From Acidimicrobiia bacterium (GTDB lineage: Bacteria; Actinomycetota; Acidimicrobiia; Spongiisociales; UBA5794), in assembly GCA_024762335.1 (NCBI GenBank), contig JANTHO010000024.1:1-34909 (forward strand): 34,909 nucleotides of DNA. Direction: 5' to 3'. The notes beneath the pieces are model-generated. The model ran no database searches, was not told the origin of the DNA, and saw only the letters and a list, made by a program, of their open reading frames with translations. The translations under genes were made by a program, and so were the position numbers. Shown piece by piece: positions 25,818-34,909 of the stretch; position 1 is the first letter of the stretch, and each line of letters opens with the position of its first letter.

Positions 25818-26399
25818 ATGGAATACACGCCTCAGACCGCACTCATCATCGTCGACGTTCAGAACGACTTCGCCGATCCGAAGGGGTCGCTCTACGTCGA
25901 CGGCGGAGAAGACACGATCCCGTTCATCAACGAGCAGATCGAGGGCGCCCGTCGGTCGGGTGCCGCCGTCGTCTATACCCGGGACTGGCACCCCGAGTCG
26001 ACACCGCACTTCGCCAAGGACGGGGGAATATGGCCGGTGCACTGCGTCGCCGACACGTGGGGCTCCGAGTTCCACCCCGGCCTCGTCGTCGAGGGACCGG
26101 AGATCAGGAAGGGCACCGGAGGTGAAGACGGCTACTCGGGTTTCACCGTGCGCGACCCGGTTACCGGTGAAGAGACGTCGACCGGCCTCGAACGCTTCCT
26201 CCGTGATCGCGACATCACCAACGTCGCGGTGTTGGGCCTCGCGACCGACTACTGCGTGAAGGAGACCGCGCTCGACGCCGGCCGACTCGGGTTCAGAACA
26301 ACCCTCCTTGCCGACGGCATCCGTGCGGTCAACCTCTCCCCCGGAGATGGAGCGCGAGCGATAGCCGAGTTGGTATCTGCCGGCGTGATCGTCGAGTAG
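25818..26399 (+). CDS. pncA: Nicotinamidase
   Basis: Hydrolyses nicotinamide to nicotinate in NAD salvage. The 193-residue protein carries the catalytic triad Asp13 (IVDVQNDF), Lys98 (EIRKGT) and Cys146 (ATDYCVKET), and the metal-binding set Asp56, His58 and His64 in RDWHPESTPHF. The metal set distinguishes nicotinamidases from general isochorismatase-like hydrolases. Nicotinate phosphoribosyltransferase, the next step, is encoded 1.1 kb downstream on the other strand, and a nicotinamide-releasing sirtuin at 6673. Its start has TAGACT 6 bases upstream and no ribosome-binding site. Confidence 0.93.
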   Translation: MEYTPQTALIIVDVQNDFADPKGSLYVDGGEDTIPFINEQIEGARRSGAAVVYTRDWHPESTPHFAKDGGIWPVHCVADTWGSEFHPGLVVEGPEIRKGTGGEDGYSGFTVRDPVTGEETSTGLERFLRDRDITNVAVLGLATDYCVKETALDAGRLGFRTTLLADGIRAVNLSPGDGARAIAELVSAGVIVE

Positions 26400-26414
26400 C
26401 AACGTCTGCTTTCG

Positions 26415-26975
26415 TCATGTGAGCGATGCGACGGTCTCTGTGAGCCACGCCCTGGTGATCGGCATCCGCCGGACCATCACGCGAAACCAGACGGCGGCCG
26501 CGACCTGTTCGACGATCTGATCAACATCGGTCGACGGTGGAAGCTCCCCCCGATCGATACCGCGTCGGACGACGAGCCCTGCATCGGCGAACCGCTCCGA
26601 CCAGAAGCCATCTGCCAGCTTCCGGATCCGGGCGGATTGCGGCTCTGCGACCGCCGCCGCGGCCACCGCCCGGCCGACGGGATCCGCGATCACCGCGCCG
26701 ATCGCGAGCCCGAGCGCCACGAGATCACTGCGCACGTCGCCTGTGTCCGGCACCGGAATTCCCCTGCTACCGTGATCGATCAGCGCCTCGAGGATCACGT
26801 CCTCTGCGGATCCCCATCGCCGGTAGATCGTGGTCTTGTGCACACCCGAAGCCTCGGCGATGCGCTCGACGCTGGCCGAGGCCCACCCCTCCTCACCTAC
26901 GACGGCGAGTGCAGCGTCGAACACGGAACGACGAACACGAGCACTCCGTCCTCCCGGTCGTTGTTTCGGTTCCAT
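26415..26975 (-). CDS. TetR-family transcriptional regulator
   Basis: A 186-residue repressor-type protein. The N-terminal helix-turn-helix (about 16-62) contains SVERIAEASGVHKTTIYRRW, the canonical TetR recognition unit. The C-terminal helical domain is of the kind that binds a small ligand and dimerises; its ligand is unknown. It is divergent from an SRPBCC-domain gene, and two similar palindromes lie in the spacer, so it most likely represses itself and that gene. TAAGGT is 6 bases before the ATG with no ribosome-binding site, consistent with a leaderless message. Confidence 0.92.
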   Translation of the reverse strand: MEPKQRPGGRSARVRRSVFDAALAVVGEEGWASASVERIAEASGVHKTTIYRRWGSAEDVILEALIDHGSRGIPVPDTGDVRSDLVALGLAIGAVIADPVGRAVAAAAVAEPQSARIRKLADGFWSERFADAGLVVRRGIDRGELPPSTDVDQIVEQVAAAVWFRVMVRRMPITRAWLTETVASLT

Positions 26976-26981
26976 GACGTT

Positions 26982-26987
26982 ACCTTA
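26982..26987 (-). promoter_or_regulatory. Candidate -10 box for the TetR gene
   Basis: Minus-strand TAAGGT, then AACGTC, then the ATG at 26975. The first palindrome begins 3 bases upstream of this box. Confidence 0.4.
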
Positions 26988-26989
26988 CT

Positions 26990-27004
26990 GCAACAGATGG
27001 TTGC
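26990..27004. promoter_or_regulatory. Putative TetR operator 1
   Basis: GCAAC-AGATG-GTTGC, a perfect 5-bp-arm palindrome. It lies directly upstream of both candidate -10 boxes (26982-26987 minus, 27007-27012 plus), so binding here would block both promoters. Confidence 0.6.
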
Positions 27005-27006
27005 GT

Positions 27007-27012
27007 TATGAT
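27007..27012 (+). promoter_or_regulatory. Candidate -10 box for the SRPBCC gene
   Basis: TATGAT, one mismatch from TATAAT, 48 bases before the ATG at 27061. It begins 2 bases after operator 1. A leader of about 40 bases with AGGAGAG near the start codon would follow, so this gene is not leaderless. Confidence 0.5.
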
Positions 27013-27032
27013 GTTCGACCGCCTACTCTAAC

Positions 27033-27047
27033 ACAACGATATGTTGC
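27033..27047. promoter_or_regulatory. Putative TetR operator 2
   Basis: ACAAC-GATAT-GTTGC shares the CAAC-N5-GTTGCG pattern with operator 1. Their centres are 43 bases apart, about four helical turns. It would lie in the leader of the SRPBCC message. Confidence 0.55.
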
Positions 27048-27060
27048 GATAGGAGAGACA

Positions 27061-27495
27061 ATGCGGAGGATCGAGACTGAAATCCAGATCGACGGAACGA
27101 CCGGAGCCGTGTGGAATGTCCTCATGGATTTCGCCGCTTACCCCGAATGGAACCCGTTCGTTCGCGAGATCAGCGGCACGCCGGTCGAAGGGGAGCAGCT
27201 CACGATTCGGCTCCAGGCACCAGGTCACAAGGCGATGACGATGACACCGCGTGTGACGATCGCCGAATCCGGGCACAGCTTCTCATGGCTCGGCAAGCTC
27301 TGGATCAAGGGGCTGTTCGACGGCCACCACCACTTCCGCATCCGGGAGCAGTCCGACGGATCGGTTCTGTTCACGCAGTCCGAAGACTTCGCCGGCCTTC
27401 TTGCACCGGTCCTCATGAAGACCATCGGGGAGGAGACTCGGGACGGGTTCGAACTCATGAACGACGCTCTCAAGCGTCGCGTCGAACGCGGTTAG
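27061..27495 (+). CDS. SRPBCC/START-like lipid- or ligand-binding protein
   Basis: A 144-residue single-domain protein with the helix-grip pattern: an N-terminal strand (IETEIQIDGTTGAVWNVL), then FAAYPEWNPFVREISG, which is the hallmark of the polyketide cyclase/SRPBCC group, beta strands in the middle, and a long C-terminal helix from about 119 to the end. These proteins bind hydrophobic ligands in a central cavity; the ligand here is unknown, and no catalytic residue is evident. It has a good ribosome-binding site (AGGAGAG). The divergent TetR gene and the shared operators suggest that it is induced by the TetR ligand. Its stop codon overlaps the stop of the convergent phosphoribosyltransferase gene. 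Confidence 0.88.
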   Translation: MRRIETEIQIDGTTGAVWNVLMDFAAYPEWNPFVREISGTPVEGEQLTIRLQAPGHKAMTMTPRVTIAESGHSFSWLGKLWIKGLFDGHHHFRIREQSDGSVLFTQSEDFAGLLAPVLMKTIGEETRDGFELMNDALKRRVERG

Positions 27496-29036
27496 CCGCC
27501 CGAACGCTCCTGTTCGATCAGATCACGCTGGAGCCGCTTGACCGATCCGGTAAGCGACACGTGATAGACGTGGGGATTGACGAGCCTGCGAACACCGGGA
27601 TCGAGCCGGTCGAGATCTGCAAGCCTGCGCTCCCGCATCTCGTCGAGGGAAGCATCAGGGAGAAGCCTCTGCCCCCGCCGGTATACCGGTACCACCAACT
27701 CTTCGATGTTCTCGATGTTGTCGACGGATCGCATGATGCCCTCTCGATGCGGGTGATACAGGTCGAGGTCGTCCCCGGATGACAGGTCTTCGTCCCCACC
27801 GGACACGACATCGGCCGTCGCGAGCCCGCGATCGTCGTAGACCCGCCACACACGCTTGTCACCCGGGATCGGCATCTTCTCCGGAGTGTCCGAGATCTTC
27901 ATCGCCGGGACCCACTCGTCAGCGCCATCGATCGCGACCAGTTTGTAGACTCCCCCGAGCGACGGGAATCCATGCGACGTTACGAGCCGGGTTCCGACGC
28001 CGTATGTCAGCCGATGCAGGACCGCATCGCCGTCGACGCCGTACCGGGGCGCCTCCTCGATGATTTGGGCCCGAATCTGCCACATGGCGAGTTCGTCGAG
28101 TTCCGACGACAGGACGATCCGGGCCTCTGGGAACCCTCCGTCGTCGAGCATCCGCGCAGCCCGAACGGCAAGGTGTGCGAGATCGCCGGAGTCCAGGCGG
28201 ATCCCCACCGGTTCATGTCCGGACTCCCGCAACTCCCTGAAGACCGTGAGGGCGTTGGGAATACCGCTTTCGAGCGTGTTGATCGTGTCGACGAGCAGGA
28301 CGCACTCATCGGGGTAGGTCTCAGCGTATGCTCGAAACGCCCCGATCTCCCCCTCGCCCATCGCCATGAAGAGCTGGACCATGGAGTGGGCGTGGGTTCC
28401 CTGCGGATCGATGCCCACCGCGTGGGAGACGCCGACGTTGCTCGACGCGTCGGCACCACCGATCAACGCCGCACGGGTTCCAGCGTTCGTCCCGGTATCG
28501 GGACCCCGGCGCATCCCGAACTCGAGCACCGGTCCTCCTGCGGCGGATTCGGCCACGCGTGACGCCTTCGTCGCAACGAGCGTCTGATAATTGAGGTGAT
28601 TGAGGAACGACGTCTCGAGAATCTGAGCGATCGCGAGCGGACCCTCAACGATGGCTATCGGAGCGTGCCGGTGGACAATTCGCCCCTCGGGTACAGCCCG
28701 GATGGACACACCCCCGAAGCCGCCGGTCCCGGCGAGCCACCCGAGGAACCCCTCGTCGAACCGGCGCCGGCCGCTCGCACACCGTTGGGAACGGAGCCGA
28801 TCGAGATCCTCGTCACGGATCCGTGTCGCATCGATCCAATCGAGCAGCCACTCGAGACCGGCGAACACCGCGTAACCGGCCTGATGTCGTCCGTAATCTG
28901 GATAGCGCCGGAAGAAGTAGTCGAACTGTGCCGTTCGCTCGTGAAGTCCGCGCTTCCAATACAGCTGCGCCATCGTGAGCTGGTACTGATCGGTGAATAG
29001 AAAGCCTTCAGTCAGATCGCGACGTTGTCTCGGCAT
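27492..29036 (-). CDS. pncB: Nicotinate phosphoribosyltransferase
   Basis: Joins nicotinate with phosphoribosyl pyrophosphate to give nicotinate mononucleotide. The 514-residue protein starts with the typical LTEGFLFTDQYQLTMAQLYW, continues with NYQTLVATKASRVAESAAG, EFGMRRGPD and GTHAHSMVQLF (the phosphorylated-His region of the family), then VGIRLDSGDLAHLA and YGVGTRLVTS. It follows nicotinamidase in the salvage route. The start is taken as ATG 29036, with TATCGT 7 bases upstream; GTG at 29045 would add three residues. Convergent with the SRPBCC gene: the stop codons overlap. Confidence 0.94.
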   Translation of the reverse strand: MPRQRRDLTEGFLFTDQYQLTMAQLYWKRGLHERTAQFDYFFRRYPDYGRHQAGYAVFAGLEWLLDWIDATRIRDEDLDRLRSQRCASGRRRFDEGFLGWLAGTGGFGGVSIRAVPEGRIVHRHAPIAIVEGPLAIAQILETSFLNHLNYQTLVATKASRVAESAAGGPVLEFGMRRGPDTGTNAGTRAALIGGADASSNVGVSHAVGIDPQGTHAHSMVQLFMAMGEGEIGAFRAYAETYPDECVLLVDTINTLESGIPNALTVFRELRESGHEPVGIRLDSGDLAHLAVRAARMLDDGGFPEARIVLSSELDELAMWQIRAQIIEEAPRYGVDGDAVLHRLTYGVGTRLVTSHGFPSLGGVYKLVAIDGADEWVPAMKISDTPEKMPIPGDKRVWRVYDDRGLATADVVSGGDEDLSSGDDLDLYHPHREGIMRSVDNIENIEELVVPVYRRGQRLLPDASLDEMRERRLADLDRLDPGVRRLVNPHVYHVSLTGSVKRLQRDLIEQERSGG

Positions 29037-29043
29037 ACAGCCC

Positions 29044-29049
29044 ACGATA
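29044..29049 (-). promoter_or_regulatory. Candidate -10 box for pncB
   Basis: Minus-strand TATCGT, then GGGCTGT, then the ATG at 29036. No strong ribosome-binding site is present. The remaining spacer to 29200 holds no other clear signal apart from TACAGT at 29146, a possible -10 box for the signalling operon. Confidence 0.4.
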
Positions 29050-29200
29050 GGCGTCGGCCGGCTCGCGCGTTGAACTACGTTCGCTGGTTCACTCCCGGAA
29101 GTGTCGATCCGGGGATTCTCTCCGGCCGCTGGATCACGGACACGCTACAGTTTCCGGCTGGGAGAACCCGTACCCGATACGACGACGAGGCACGCCCATT

Positions 29201-31342
29201 GTGAAGAACATCTCGGTGGCTACACGCATTGCTGTTGCCATCATGCTCGTGGTCGTCACCGCCCTCACGGTCACCTACGTGTTCGGTTCAGACAGTCTCG
29301 ATCGGCTGTCGCAGACCGGAGTGGATGTTCGTTTCGAGGCAACCCGGGCCGGCAAGGTCGACGAGGTGACCCGGTTCATCAAGTCGATTGAACGGGCGAC
29401 CGCCCAGCTCGCAGCGTCACCGATGACCGTTGAAGCAACAACTCGATTCACCCAGGCCTATGGGAATCTCCCGACAACGAAGAGCGAGTCGTCACGCCGG
29501 ACCGCTATCGACACGCTTGTTCCGATCTATCGTGACGAGTACCTGCCCTCGCTCGTTGAGGCGAGAGGACGCCAGGTCGAACTTGCCTCGGTCATACCGG
29601 CCACCGACGAGGCTATCTACCTTCAGACAGCCTACTTCGGCGCCGCCGCCACGATCGGCGTCGGCCCGGAGGACATCGACGATGCGCTCGATGGAAGCGA
29701 CTGGACCGCCGTGCATCAGGAATTCAATCCGACCTACCGCGAAACCGCCGACGAACTCGGGCTCTCGGATGTCTACATCATCGACGCTGCGACGGACGCG
29801 ATCGTCTACTCGGTCGCGAAGAACACCGACTTCGCCACGAGCCTCGAGCTCGGCCCGGTGAGCGGAAGCACGCTCGCAACCATGGTCCGTCTGATCCGAC
29901 AGTCTCCGGAAGCAGGAATGATCGCCGTCGTCGACTTCGCCCGATACAACCCGGACCTCGCCGCTCCGATGGCGTTCTTCGGCAGCCCGATCTTCGACGG
30001 TGACCGGTTCATCGGCGTGCTGGCCACGAAGATCTCGACGAACGAGACCAATCGCATCATGACGAACGACGCCGACTGGCCCTCGATTGGCCTCGGACAG
30101 ACGGGGGAAGCGTTCATCGTCGGTTCTGATGGGCGGTTTCGATCCGACTCGCGCCTCTTCGTCGAGAACCCGGACGCCTACTTCGAGGAGGCGATCGAGG
30201 CCGGGACGCTTGATTCCGGAGACGTCTCAGGTGTCTTGAGCTCCGGAACGACCGCCTTGTTCCAACGGATGGATCTCGCGACCCTCGAAGCCGTACAGAA
30301 GGTTGATGGTGACGTCGTAGAGACGACGAGCTATCTCGCAAAGCCTGCCTTCACGACCGTCGAAGAGGTCGACATCGACGGTCTCGACTGGCTGGTCGTC
30401 GTTCAGGCGGCACGAAATGAGGTCGACGGCCTTCGAGGCGGTGCCGGCACAGCCACCGGCGTCACCATCGTGATGTTCGTTCTCATCCTCACGTTCGTCG
30501 CGGTGGTCTGGGCATCCCGCTTCGTACGACCCGTCAGGGCGCTGACGCTCCGACTTCGATCTCTCACCCGACACGAGGACAGAGCACCGGCGTCCTCGAC
30601 GACGGTCCAGGACGGGGCCGTGACACGCGAGTACGCCGAGCTCGCCGACGGAATCGAAAGCATGATCGACGGTCTCGCCGAAAGAGAACGGATTCTCGAC
30701 GAAACCGAAACGGAACGCCGAGAGCTTATCCGTCGGTTCCTTCCGGCCGAGGTCGTTCGGAGGCTCGAGGCCGGCGAGCGCGACCTGGTGGAACGGATCC
30801 CCAACGCCACAGTCGTTGCGATCGTTTTGGGAGGTCTCGGAACGCTCAGAGAAGACGACTCGATTGCCGACATTCGCTCCCGTCTCGATGCCTCGATCGA
30901 GACGTTCGACGACATTGCCGGCCGCTACGGGTTGGACCGGGTGAAGATCATCGGTGACACGTACTACGCGGTGTGCGGACTCACCCGCCCCTACCTCGAC
31001 CATGCCCCGAGATCAATCGAATTCGCGATCGAAGCGCTGCGCACGTTCGACTGGTCCGATACGGATGTTGAACGACTGGACCTCTCGATCGGTGTCGCGA
31101 GCGGACCGATCACCGCAGGATTGGCAGGCCGTCATCACTTGCTCTTCGACACATGGGGAGTGACCGTCACTGAGGCCGGATTCCTCGCGAGAGCCGCGCG
31201 GCCGGGAACGATCGTCGTCTCCCCTTCGGTGAGGAACCAACTGCCAGACGATATCGAAGCGATCGAGTTCGCCGACGCTCCTGAGGCCCTGGAAGCGTGG
31301 CAGATCGTGCCCGCCCGTGACGCAGAGGATGCCCCGACATGA
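29201..31342 (+). CDS. Membrane receptor with sensor domain and degenerate class III cyclase domain
   Basis: A 713-residue receptor. TM1 is at about 8-28. A large outer sensor domain (about 30-415, probably double-Cache-like) carries IVYSVAKNTDFATSL (201-215), and TM2 is at about 420-438. A HAMP-like stretch and coiled coil lead to RRFLPAEVVRRLEAGE, the usual lead-in to a cyclase domain (about 535-700). The domain keeps Lys582 and Asp586 in VKIIGDTYYAVCG and Asp650 in FDTWG. However, the first metal Asp is Val542, and the transition-state Asn and Arg are Thr657 and Phe661. Cyclase activity is therefore unlikely, and it may act as a pseudoenzyme. Starts at GTG 29201 with a distant GAGG. It overlaps the channel gene by 4 bases (ATGA). 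Confidence 0.88.
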   Translation: MKNISVATRIAVAIMLVVVTALTVTYVFGSDSLDRLSQTGVDVRFEATRAGKVDEVTRFIKSIERATAQLAASPMTVEATTRFTQAYGNLPTTKSESSRRTAIDTLVPIYRDEYLPSLVEARGRQVELASVIPATDEAIYLQTAYFGAAATIGVGPEDIDDALDGSDWTAVHQEFNPTYRETADELGLSDVYIIDAATDAIVYSVAKNTDFATSLELGPVSGSTLATMVRLIRQSPEAGMIAVVDFARYNPDLAAPMAFFGSPIFDGDRFIGVLATKISTNETNRIMTNDADWPSIGLGQTGEAFIVGSDGRFRSDSRLFVENPDAYFEEAIEAGTLDSGDVSGVLSSGTTALFQRMDLATLEAVQKVDGDVVETTSYLAKPAFTTVEEVDIDGLDWLVVVQAARNEVDGLRGGAGTATGVTIVMFVLILTFVAVVWASRFVRPVRALTLRLRSLTRHEDRAPASSTTVQDGAVTREYAELADGIESMIDGLAERERILDETETERRELIRRFLPAEVVRRLEAGERDLVERIPNATVVAIVLGGLGTLREDDSIADIRSRLDASIETFDDIAGRYGLDRVKIIGDTYYAVCGLTRPYLDHAPRSIEFAIEALRTFDWSDTDVERLDLSIGVASGPITAGLAGRHHLLFDTWGVTVTEAGFLARAARPGTIVVSPSVRNQLPDDIEAIEFADAPEALEAWQIVPARDAEDAPT

Positions 31343-32835
31343 TGCTCATCGCGGCTATCGGGACGATCGCGTGGACCGCCGCGTTCGTGATAATCGCCCC
31401 TCTCGTCATCATCGGTGCCGGAGAGCTGGAAGGTCGCCTCACCTATCGCGACTCACCGTTCGTTCCGGCGGCCTCGATCCTCCGCACCTGGGTTCTTCCC
31501 CTCCTGGCGATTCTCGTGGTGGCCGGGGGGTTCCTGGGTTTCGACTCGCTCGCCGTTCGCCTGGTCGGGACCGCTCTCGTCATCGCCATAACCGCCGACC
31601 TGATCGTCATTCTGGCCGTCTTCGTCCGCATGCTCAAAGCCCGTGGGGCCCAAGACGCTCGCAGGCAGGTCCCCCGGCTTCTCTTGGCGATGCCGCGCAT
31701 CTTGCTCATCCTCCTCGCCGGATGGATCCTCCTGACCGGAGTTTGGAGCGTCGATCTCACTTCGCTGTTCGCCACGCTCGGCGTGTCGACGCTGATCGTA
31801 TCGGTCGCTCTCCAGGACACCCTCAGTGGCATCGCCTCGGGGTTTCTCCTCATGCTCGACCGGCCGTTCCAGCCCGGCGACTGGATCAACGCCGAAACCG
31901 TCGAAGGGCGTGTTGTCGACACGAACTGGAGAAGCACCAGGATCCAGGACAGGGACGGCGACCTGATCGTGGTTCCGAACGGCCAGTTGGCGGGGGCCAC
32001 GATCACCAACTACGACGAGCCGAAGCAGTTGCACCGCATCGTGATCCCCGTTCAGGTGGCATTCGTCAACCCGCCCACCGTTGCGAAGAGCATGCTTCTC
32101 GACGCTGCCCGGGCGACACCGGGGGTACTGTCCGATCCGGGTCCGGCGATCCGCGTCGTCCAAGTCGACGATCCACTCATGGGATATGAGGCCGATCTGT
32201 GGGTCGACGACTACGCCATCGTGCCGAGGGTCTCGAGCGACTTCCGCTCGCTGGTTTGGTACATGTCGGAGCGCCAGGGAGTGCCGCTCCCGAGTCCGGC
32301 CTTCGATCTCTACACGTATGACGGTCTCCAGGTTGCCGAAGCGGCCAAACCCGACCCGGCCACGGTGCGGCGACGGCTGATCAAGTCCCCGCTCTTCGCA
32401 CAGCTGGGCGATGGCGACATGGATCGTCTGTCCTCCGCTGCACTTCCCGCACGGTTCGCGGCAGGCGAGGCCATCGTCACAGCGGGTCGCGATCAGTCGA
32501 GCCTGTTCGTCCTGTGGTCGGGGCGTGCACGTCTCGAAGCCGTCGATGACGGCGGCGTCTCCCACGACATCGCCGATCTTGGGCCAGGCGATGTCTGCGG
32601 TGTCGTTACGGCTTCCCCCGATTGGCCGGTGCTGCCCCGAACCGTCGCCGTGACCGATTGTGAGGTGACCGTCATCAACCTCGACACATCGGGCACGATT
32701 ATCAGCAAGAACGCCGGCCTCGCCAACGCCCTCAACCAGATTGCGAATCGACGTTCCCGGAGGATCGAGCGGCTGATCGCAGATCTCACGGCCCCCGGCT
32801 CGGAGTCAAACGATGATGAGGACGGTGGATCGTGA
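31339..32835 (+). CDS. MscS-type channel with C-terminal cyclic-nucleotide-binding-like domain
   Basis: A 498-residue channel. Five hydrophobic segments lie at about 2-26, 48-66, 75-97, 114-135 and 141-172. The last is the MscS pore helix, GVSTLIVSVALQDTLSGIAS, followed by FLLMLDRPFQPGDWI and the beta domain (IVVPNGQLAGATITNY). Residues about 345-480 resemble a cyclic-nucleotide-binding domain (SPLFAQLGDGDMDRLS, FAAGEAIVTAGRDQSSLFVLWSG). In the phosphate-binding cassette the usual Gly-Glu is Gly421-Val422, while Arg434 (LPRTVAV) is kept, so nucleotide binding is doubtful. Related bacterial channels (bCNG) are gated by cyclic nucleotides. It overlaps the receptor genes on both sides by 4 bases, so the three proteins are probably made together and may form one complex. 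Confidence 0.9.
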   Translation: MMLIAAIGTIAWTAAFVIIAPLVIIGAGELEGRLTYRDSPFVPAASILRTWVLPLLAILVVAGGFLGFDSLAVRLVGTALVIAITADLIVILAVFVRMLKARGAQDARRQVPRLLLAMPRILLILLAGWILLTGVWSVDLTSLFATLGVSTLIVSVALQDTLSGIASGFLLMLDRPFQPGDWINAETVEGRVVDTNWRSTRIQDRDGDLIVVPNGQLAGATITNYDEPKQLHRIVIPVQVAFVNPPTVAKSMLLDAARATPGVLSDPGPAIRVVQVDDPLMGYEADLWVDDYAIVPRVSSDFRSLVWYMSERQGVPLPSPAFDLYTYDGLQVAEAAKPDPATVRRRLIKSPLFAQLGDGDMDRLSSAALPARFAAGEAIVTAGRDQSSLFVLWSGRARLEAVDDGGVSHDIADLGPGDVCGVVTASPDWPVLPRTVAVTDCEVTVINLDTSGTIISKNAGLANALNQIANRRSRRIERLIADLTAPGSESNDDEDGGS

Positions 32836-34909
32836 GAGCGACGAGACTCCGGTCGAGGCCGGCCGACGTAGAGCGGAAGCCGCGGCGCCTCCGATCGTCC
32901 CGCCGATCGCTCGCGTTCGCCTTGATCGGCGTGGCCATCCTCGGCGTTGCCATCCTCGGAATCGTCAGCAGCTTCTTCGCTGCGGATGTGCTCAACTCGA
33001 CGATCGAGACGCAGCTCCGGAGTATTGCAGCCGAACGGACCACGGCGCTCGAAAACGGCATTGATCGAATTCGGGCCCAGGTCTCGGCTGCTGCCGTGGA
33101 CCGGAGTGTTGCCTCAGCACTCGACGACATGAGCTTGGCATTCACCGATCTCGAATCATCATCGGTCTCCCTCACACCCGATGAAGAGGCCGTCCTCGAA
33201 GATTTCTACCGGGTCGAGGCGCGTTCGGCTGCATATCCCGACGGCACGTCGCCGACCAGCCTCCTCCCGCATTCCGCCGCGGGACGATATCTCCAGTTCG
33301 AGTACATCGTAAGCAACCCGTTCCCCTCCGATCGCCGGTCCGAGTTGGCCGACTCCGGCGATGGCACCACGTACGACGCCGCCCACGCATCGCATCACCC
33401 TGCGCTCGTCGAACGCGCTCATGCGATGGGCGTCGACGATCTCCTGCTGATCTCCACCGGTTTGAACGATGCCATCGTCTACAGCGTCGACAAGAACACG
33501 GATTTCGCCACATCGCTGACTGTTGGGCCGTACAGCGGATCCGCGCTGACGGCTGCCGTCATGAACCGACTCGCCGGTGTGCCGGCAGGTGAAACGATTC
33601 TCGTGGACTTCGATTCCTATCCGCCCGCCGGCCCGGCACCGACGATGTTCGCCGCCGCAGCCGTCCGTCGCGACTCCCAGGTGATTGGAGCGATCGTCGT
33701 GGCCATCCCGGAGCGTGTTCTCGACGATCTGATGACCTTCCACGAACAGTGGCAGAGCGTGGGGCTTGGGAAGAGCGGCGAGATCTATCTCGTTGGATCC
33801 GATCGTCTCATGCGGTCGACCTCACGATTCTGGATCGAAGACCCCGACGGCTACCTCGCCAGGCTCGAGGAACAGGATTATCCACCCGAGGTCGGCGAAA
33901 CGATTCTGCGGCAGGACTCGACGGTACTCGCCCAACCCGTCGAGACCGAGGCCGTCGACGCGGCGCTTACGGACCGGTCCTTCAACGGCACGACGTCGAA
34001 CTACCTCGGAGACAAGACCCGAACGATTGCCGCACCCCTCGGGATCGGTGATCTCAATTGGGTCATCATCGCGGGGTTCTCCTCGTCGGATGCGATCCGT
34101 CCCATTGTCGACTATCTCTTGACGCTCGCGCTCATCATGCTCGTCCTCGTTCCGATCGTGGCAGTACTCGGGTTCCTCCTCGCGGGCCGACTCACGAGAC
34201 CGATCCAACCGCTCGTCGAGACCGTCGCGGCAATCGCTGCCGGTGACCTCGACGCGGACGTTCCGGACCTGGGCAGGAACGAGTACGGGGACCTGGGGAA
34301 CCGCATCAACGCGATCACCGAAATGCTGCGCGATCGCGATGCCCAGCGTGAAGCAGCCGAGGAATCCATCGATGAAGTCCTCATCGCTGCACTCCCCGAA
34401 AGCGTGGTGGCCTCCGCGAGAGAGGCAGCCAAGGATGGACACCATGGAATGGCGATCGATCTCGCGGACCTGATCGACACCGCGACGATCGTCTCCGTGT
34501 CGGTGTCGGGAGCATTTGACAACGCCGATACGGATGCCTCGGTCGCGACGAGCGTCGCTCTCGCAGCAGACCTCGATCGGATCGCCGACGAGTTCTCGAT
34601 CGAGCGGGTCCAATCGACACCGGAGGAGTACCTCTTCGCTGCCGGGCTTCGGAATCCCGGCTTCGCCGCCGACCCGGCTCTGAAATTCGTCGATGCGGTT
34701 CGCGATCGTCTCGATCGCCTCAACGACGAGACCGATGAACCCACCACCTATCGGATCGGTGTCGCCACCGGCCGCGTCGCGTCGGGCCTCCAGACCGGGG
34801 CCCAGATCTCGTACGGAGTCTGGGGTCCACCGGTTCGACGGGCACTCTCGCTCGCCGGCATCGCACGGCCGAACGAGACCCTCGTTGATCAGTCGGTCCA
34901 GGAGGCCCT
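32832..34909 (+). CDS. Second membrane receptor with degenerate cyclase domain (3' end cut by window)
   Basis: At least 692 residues, open to the window edge. Starts at GTG 32832, overlapping the channel stop (GTGA). A basic N-terminus is followed by TM1 (about 28-52), an outer sensor domain (about 53-425) with IVYSVDKNTDFATSL (215-229), nearly identical to the motif in the first receptor, then TM2 (about 427-451), HAMP (about 452-505, GRLTRPIQPLVETVAAIAAGDL), and a cyclase-like domain from about 545. Here every catalytic position I can align is changed: the first metal Asp is Ser557, Lys is Gln594, the second Asp is Glu598, and Asn and Arg are Arg669 and Ser673 within YGVWGPPVRRALSLA. It is a paralogue of the first receptor with a more decayed output domain. 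The C-terminus is not visible. Confidence 0.85.
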   Translation, partial: MRATRLRSRPADVERKPRRLRSSRRSLAFALIGVAILGVAILGIVSSFFAADVLNSTIETQLRSIAAERTTALENGIDRIRAQVSAAAVDRSVASALDDMSLAFTDLESSSVSLTPDEEAVLEDFYRVEARSAAYPDGTSPTSLLPHSAAGRYLQFEYIVSNPFPSDRRSELADSGDGTTYDAAHASHHPALVERAHAMGVDDLLLISTGLNDAIVYSVDKNTDFATSLTVGPYSGSALTAAVMNRLAGVPAGETILVDFDSYPPAGPAPTMFAAAAVRRDSQVIGAIVVAIPERVLDDLMTFHEQWQSVGLGKSGEIYLVGSDRLMRSTSRFWIEDPDGYLARLEEQDYPPEVGETILRQDSTVLAQPVETEAVDAALTDRSFNGTTSNYLGDKTRTIAAPLGIGDLNWVIIAGFSSSDAIRPIVDYLLTLALIMLVLVPIVAVLGFLLAGRLTRPIQPLVETVAAIAAGDLDADVPDLGRNEYGDLGNRINAITEMLRDRDAQREAAEESIDEVLIAALPESVVASAREAAKDGHHGMAIDLADLIDTATIVSVSVSGAFDNADTDASVATSVALAADLDRIADEFSIERVQSTPEEYLFAAGLRNPGFAADPALKFVDAVRDRLDRLNDETDEPTTYRIGVATGRVASGLQTGAQISYGVWGPPVRRALSLAGIARPNETLVDQSVQEA

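Follow-up and report, generated by a model that had tools for sequence, protein, structure and literature searches.

An MscS-type channel with a degenerate nucleotide site between two putative pseudo-cyclase receptors: a conserved actinobacterial operon and a possible case of gating by contact

What can two cyclase-like receptors be doing on either side of a channel, when the catalytic residues of the receptors and the nucleotide site of the channel all appear to be degenerate? This question is raised by a three-gene unit, here named A-B-C, at the end of a 34,909-nucleotide stretch of DNA from an uncultured member of the Acidimicrobiia. The stretch, hereafter the window, is one whole contig (C24, JANTHO010000024.1) of an assembly of 2.42 Mb in 117 contigs (GCA_024762335.1). 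Genes A (29201..31342, 713 amino acids), B (31339..32835, 498 amino acids) and C (32832..34909, at least 692 amino acids, with its 3' part beyond the contig end) are co-directional on the plus strand, like all their features given below, and overlap by four bases at both junctions: the stop of A and the start of B share ATGA (31339..31342), and the stop of B and the start of C share GTGA (32832..32835). From the lengths of homologues, it was estimated that the window's C, cut at 34909, is short by ~10-35 terminal residues. An earlier sequence-only reading of the window had reported these overlaps at the same positions, together with outer genes of sensor, membrane and cyclase-like architecture around an MscS channel with a domain resembling cyclic-nucleotide-binding (CNB) domains; the overlaps were found as reported, and Pfam matches agreed with the architecture.

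The receptor encoded by A consists of a transmembrane segment, a dCache-like sensor, a second transmembrane segment, a helical linker and a class III cyclase-like domain. The extracytoplasmic sensor (29303..30430, residues ~35-410) matched dCache_1 with an E-value of 2.7e-8, under Pfam's curated cut-off, and 19/21 homologues were also matched. The pseudo-cyclase domain (30788..31270, residues ~530-690) matched Guanylate_cyc (1.6e-21), and PF00211, the class III cyclase fold, was found in 21/21 A homologues. HAMP was not matched in the window's A and was present in 8/21 homologues. In the AlphaFold2 model of A (mean pLDDT 83.5), the closest solved match of the cyclase part was the Rv1625c catalytic domain 7yz9, with a TM-score of 0.86 on the target and 26% identity, and all the fold matches listed for the model were cyclases. 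The C receptor has a similar order of parts, with a HAMP domain between the second transmembrane segment and the cyclase-like domain. This HAMP domain (34176..34334; PF00672, 2.9e-11) was detected in 18/18 C homologues and is followed by the pseudo-cyclase domain (34473..34907; Guanylate_cyc, 1.8e-7), with PF00211 matched in 16/18 homologues. The dCache_1 match of the window's C (9e-5) was below the curated cut-off, and 11/18 homologues were matched.

Between the receptors, B contains matches to MS_channel_2nd (3.8e-20), MS_channel_3rd (0.0036) and cNMP_binding (7.7e-9); among its homologues, the first was found in 21/21 and the last in 20/21. The structural model of B, of moderate confidence (mean pLDDT 75.7), matched MscS and YnaI and contains four predicted helices and then a pore helix ahead of the beta-domain. 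The pore helix, MscS beta-domain and alpha-beta cage span 31759..32328 (residues ~141-330), and the C-terminal CNB domain spans 32371..32748 (residues ~345-470). Both sequence and predicted fold place B in the MscS superfamily, and tension-gated conduction is a putative property of the channel.

For both receptors, the catalytic positions were read from an alignment to 7yz9, an Rv1625c-type cyclase. In the window's A, the first metal Asp is replaced by Val, the transition-state Asn by Thr and the Arg by Phe, with Lys582, Asp586 (the second metal position) and Asp650 retained, and in the window's C all six canonical catalytic or substrate positions are altered (S, Q, E, G, R and S). Across the homologues, the first metal Asp was found in 0/26 A (mostly Val) and 4/22 C proteins, both metal Asp in three C proteins only, the transition-state Asn in 0/27 A and 0/21 C, and the transition-state Arg in 5/27 A and 0/21 C. 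In A, the adenine-specifying Lys is retained in 25/26 proteins, the second metal Asp in 21/26 and the adenine Asp wherever the domain is complete, whereas in C the Lys (0/22) and the Asp (0/21) are absent. Acids remain at the metal positions in four related C proteins (L043, L044, L046 and L048), of which three have both Asp; this sub-clade, whose A partners are without Asn and Arg, may be a stage on the way to loss of catalysis. In class III dimers, the metal acids are provided by one chain and the substrate and transition-state residues by the other (PMC4174876). Since both receptors lack Asn, and those A proteins that accompany a C with metal acids lack Arg as well, a complete site would be assembled neither by homodimers nor by pairing A with C. 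As a control, the closest non-operon class III domains from this taxonomic class were scored: 25/25 retain both metal Asp, Asn and Arg, indicating that the catalytic loss is specific to the operon and not to the lineage. From these residues, we infer that the A and C domains no longer synthesise cyclic nucleotide. Arg was also found at the catalytic Asn position in 16/21 C proteins and at the Lys position in 15/22, suggesting that the pocket of C may have been remodelled to serve a different function.

The nucleotide site of the channel is also degenerate. In the window's B, the phosphate cassette reads GDVCGVV in place of FGE.., the cassette Glu is missing in 26/26 B proteins (mostly Leu instead), and the cassette Arg position is variable and lost in most. 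Two distant MscS-CNB proteins (L064 and L065) retain the Glu, and L065 retains the Arg also. The sequence-only reading had claimed that the enzyme sites and the channel's cassette decayed together. Decay was confirmed on both sides, as a complete catalytic set was found in no homologous operon and the cassette Glu in no B protein; the decay is uneven, however, with A keeping the Lys and Asp that C does not, and the few C proteins with metal acids further limit the idea of a uniform loss.

The arrangement of the three genes is conserved. A search of 60 relatives yielded eight full-length B homologues (47-74% identity), each preceded by A and followed by C, and a B profile scan of 84,980 species genomes gave 24 close loci, in Acidimicrobiia and other actinobacterial metagenome-assembled genomes, including one labelled Nitriliruptorales and one Thermoleophilia. 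The order was A-B-C at all the ~27 close B loci wherever the contig extends far enough, and no close B without an adjoining A or C was found where the contig permitted the check; direct flanking by A and C at every checkable locus argues that the arrangement is not due to chance. Full-length A-type receptors were found only within this operon (148 genomes). In a class sample of 296 genomes, 13 carriers were detected, one of which is a single-contig genome (G060, L102), so the unit is not a binning artefact. The set was also found beyond the class, in two genomes that belong to another family of the phylum: it is complete in L150, and L151 contains B plus fragments or neighbours matching L061. 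The three-gene order seen by the sequence-only reading in one genome therefore extends well beyond it, even outside the class.

The junctions at homologous loci are usually 4- or 8-base overlaps, with B/C mostly of four bases. No fourth conserved gene was found within 6 kb of the unit beyond close relatives, and no homologous locus contained a genuine fusion of A with B or of B with C; apparent fusions (e.g. the 1238-residue C of L050 and the 983-residue A of L052) were open-frame run-ons across the neighbour. A split A gene in L045 (8024-9983) looks like a frameshift and is probably an assembly error. Split A and C genes in L063 (7946-13439), a locus with runs of N, translated as X, are probably assembly errors as well, and neither case was taken as biology.

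The inactive domains are under purifying selection. The ratio of non-synonymous to synonymous substitution rates (dN/dS) was 0.06-0.51 across all domains and pairs compared, with the pseudo-cyclases similar to the sensors, these values being rough for distant pairs with high dS. Conservation within A is higher in the dead cyclase domain (45%) than in the sensor (35%). A tree built on the cyclase domain alone recovered an A clade (support 99/99) and a C clade (100/99), both apart from outside cyclases, which fits one duplication preceding the divergence of the operons, with A and C as paralogues. The pairwise identities of A, B and C are correlated (r = 0.95-0.98, Mantel p = 0.0005), which shows joint inheritance of the three genes and not by itself contact between their products.

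A possible active counterpart was observed in an acidobacterial locus (L065:2612-7213), where genes for a CHASE2-like class III cyclase (a label read from its sequence), an M48-like peptidase and an MscS-CNB channel, in this order, form one apparent operon. As in A-B-C, cyclase and MscS-CNB genes stand together, but here the catalytic residues and the CNB cassette are intact and there is no pair of dCache receptors. This single example may resemble the ancestral state. The descent from an active cyclase and a channel gated by cyclic nucleotide that had been proposed from the window is plausible, given that the outside cyclases are intact and that L065 pairs an intact cyclase with an MscS-CNB protein.

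Within the window's genome (G000), a single further class III cyclase was detected (L110, G000:C33:19950-20402). Its cyclase domain is short and N-terminal, with TPR-like repeats behind it, and its metal Asp, Asn and Arg appear to be intact. An intact-cassette CNB domain (L111, G000:C33:4581-4835) was found fused to a histidine-kinase-like protein, beside a thioredoxin-reductase-like gene. The presence of both suggests that cyclic nucleotide signalling has not been lost from this genome.

A further peculiarity of the operon lies in the alpha-beta cage of B. The identity of this region was equal to or higher than that of the beta-domain in 78% of operon pairs vs 4.5% of control MscS pairs, the control set being mixed and partly gammaproteobacterial. 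At 60-70% beta-domain identity, alpha-beta minus beta came to +6 points for the operon channels and -23 for the controls, and an actinobacterial control subset showed the same direction (68% and 46%). The outside MscS-CNB pair L064/L065, a thin sample of one, resembles the controls (48% and 29%), suggesting that the CNB domain alone is no obvious cause of the conservation. The unusual conservation makes the alpha-beta cage a candidate docking surface.

How, then, might the unit work? We regard the chances as about even that a receptor complex of the A and C pseudo-cyclases gates B by direct contact. The cyclase folds of A and C would be protein-protein signalling modules, probably forming an A/C heterodimer. 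Class III cyclase domains dimerise head-to-tail, and this, together with the different decay of A and C, is the ground for proposing the heterodimer. A ligand at the dCache-like sensors would alter the cytoplasmic A/C dimer, which would touch B at the alpha-beta cage and/or the degenerate CNB domain and open or close the channel. The unit would then work as a valve for ions or osmolytes under ligand control, with direct contact in place of a second messenger. Since the Lys and Asp persist in A, in most cases together with the second metal Asp, A may also bind nucleotide, and an adenine nucleotide held by the Lys and Asp might serve as an allosteric input. Heterodimerisation, contact with B, the direction of gating, the ligand and the permeant solute are all what we infer.

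Several points weigh against gating by contact. The residues retained in A (Lys, Asp and second metal Asp) and the metal acids of four C proteins hint that some nucleotide chemistry or binding is left. The CNB domain, one of the proposed contact sites, belongs to the less conserved regions of this protein (mean pairwise identity 37.5%), and the conservation of the cage could stem from CNB packing or from a special permeant and not from docking. The MscS-type channel family is known as heptameric, and a dimeric receptor acting on such a channel would face a mismatch of symmetry.

The retained residues lead to the nearest alternative, a nucleotide-sensing valve, in which A/C binds ATP, ADP or another adenine nucleotide without turnover and gating by contact reports energy state as well as ligand, the decisive input coming from inside the cell. 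The loss of Asn and the first metal Asp from A proteins that keep the adenine-specifying pair and the second metal Asp is consistent with such a sensor; in four operons the metal acids of C could complement the Lys and Asp of A at a composite site, and a degenerate site is seemingly allosteric in heterodimeric rhodopsin guanylyl cyclases (PMC12264004). We nevertheless consider it unlikely, because the first metal position of C is non-acidic in most operons, including the window's, which makes the affinity uncertain, and the Lys and Asp of A may have been retained for folding.

It is decidedly unlikely that A and C are instead regulatory subunits of active cyclases encoded elsewhere, with B an ordinary tension-gated valve that is merely co-expressed. 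Heterodimeric cyclases with a degenerate partner or site are known (C1/C2, PMC4174876; NeoR/RGC, PMC12264004), and one further class III cyclase is available in the window's genome; but this sole candidate is of a different, TPR-linked type, A and C already make a ready pair, and channel and receptors were never found apart in the sample and have one common history.

Continued use of a cyclic nucleotide, either by non-canonical synthesis in A/C or by an unusual mode of cyclic nucleotide binding to B, appears improbable. The cyclase and CNB folds have been retained, the intact cyclase and CNB cassette elsewhere in the genome suggest that cAMP may exist in the cell, and five A proteins have Arg at the transition-state position. 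However, Asn occurs in no A or C and the first metal Asp in no A, the A partners of the metal-acid C proteins lack both Asn and Arg, and no B protein has the cassette Glu.

We find it quite improbable that B is chiefly a tension-gated osmotic valve for which A and C are scaffolds or assembly partners, with no ligand gating. The MscS core of B is intact, and the titles cited in PMC4560390 report tension gating in the bacterial cyclic-nucleotide-gated (bCNG) family, but each operon encodes two large extracytoplasmic sensors under selection, which point to a ligand input. Decay of a former cyclase-channel pathway, with A, B and C as its remnants, would account for the missing catalytic residues but is hardly credible, given frames intact in nearly all of the ~27 genomes (the exceptions, L063 and L045, look like assembly problems), dN/dS well under 1 in the dead domains, and the same loss fixed across a family whose A proteins go down to 31% identity with the window's.

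Compared with known systems, B is closest to the bCNG channels, which are MscS-CNB proteins (Caldwell 2010 and Malcolm 2012, as cited in PMC4560390). As in these, an MscS core is followed by a C-terminal CNB domain, with the pore, beta-domain and CNB fold all present; unlike these, B lacks an intact phosphate cassette (Glu lost in 26/26, Arg in most) and is always encoded between two pseudo-cyclase receptors. It also differs from the control MscS proteins in its far more conserved alpha-beta cage. A and C share with Rv1625c/Cya-type class III adenylyl cyclases the fold and the coupling of a membrane part to a cyclase domain, but the two metal Asp and the Asn/Arg set are not preserved: all A proteins are without the first metal Asp and Asn, and all C proteins are without Lys, adenine Asp, Asn and Arg. 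Like mammalian C1/C2 and NeoR/RGC, they are diverged paralogous cyclase domains that keep different subsets of residues; those systems retain one working site (PMC4174876, PMC12264004), while A/C pairing restores none.

The intergenic stretch that separates gene A from a divergent NAPRT-like gene (29046..29200), the expected site of the unit's promoter, contained no sigma-70 consensus match. Two promoter-like matches were found at the A-B-C locus, both weak and within genes, and terminator-like sites were not above the count in shuffled sequence. Beside the operon (25818-29045), isochorismatase/nicotinamidase-like and NAPRT-like genes lie on opposite strands, suggesting NAD salvage. A related open reading frame was found upstream of A in L040, at the same distance, indicating that it is common to at least the closest relative.

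No description of this operon or system was found in the open-access literature, to which the search was confined, subscription papers not being covered. The parts of A-B-C come from known families, while their combination, and the mechanism proposed from it, are without a precedent that we could find. It may be, and we would place the chances somewhat short of even, that A-B-C represents a new kind of bacterial ligand-gated channel, in which a pseudo-cyclase pair gates an MscS channel by contact and whose ancestor, a cyclase with a cAMP-gated channel, lost its messenger at both ends. If so, a pathway would have shed its second messenger and yet kept the proteins at both ends of it, and domains of synthase and receptor would have exchanged chemistry for contact, on two occasions in the receptors and on one in the channel. 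Bacteria would gain a class of receptor-operated channels and dead cyclase domains would gain a function, turning the role of pseudo-cyclases into a bench question with three genes. As dCache sensors are found on many receptor types, the unit would also offer a modular ligand-gated valve.

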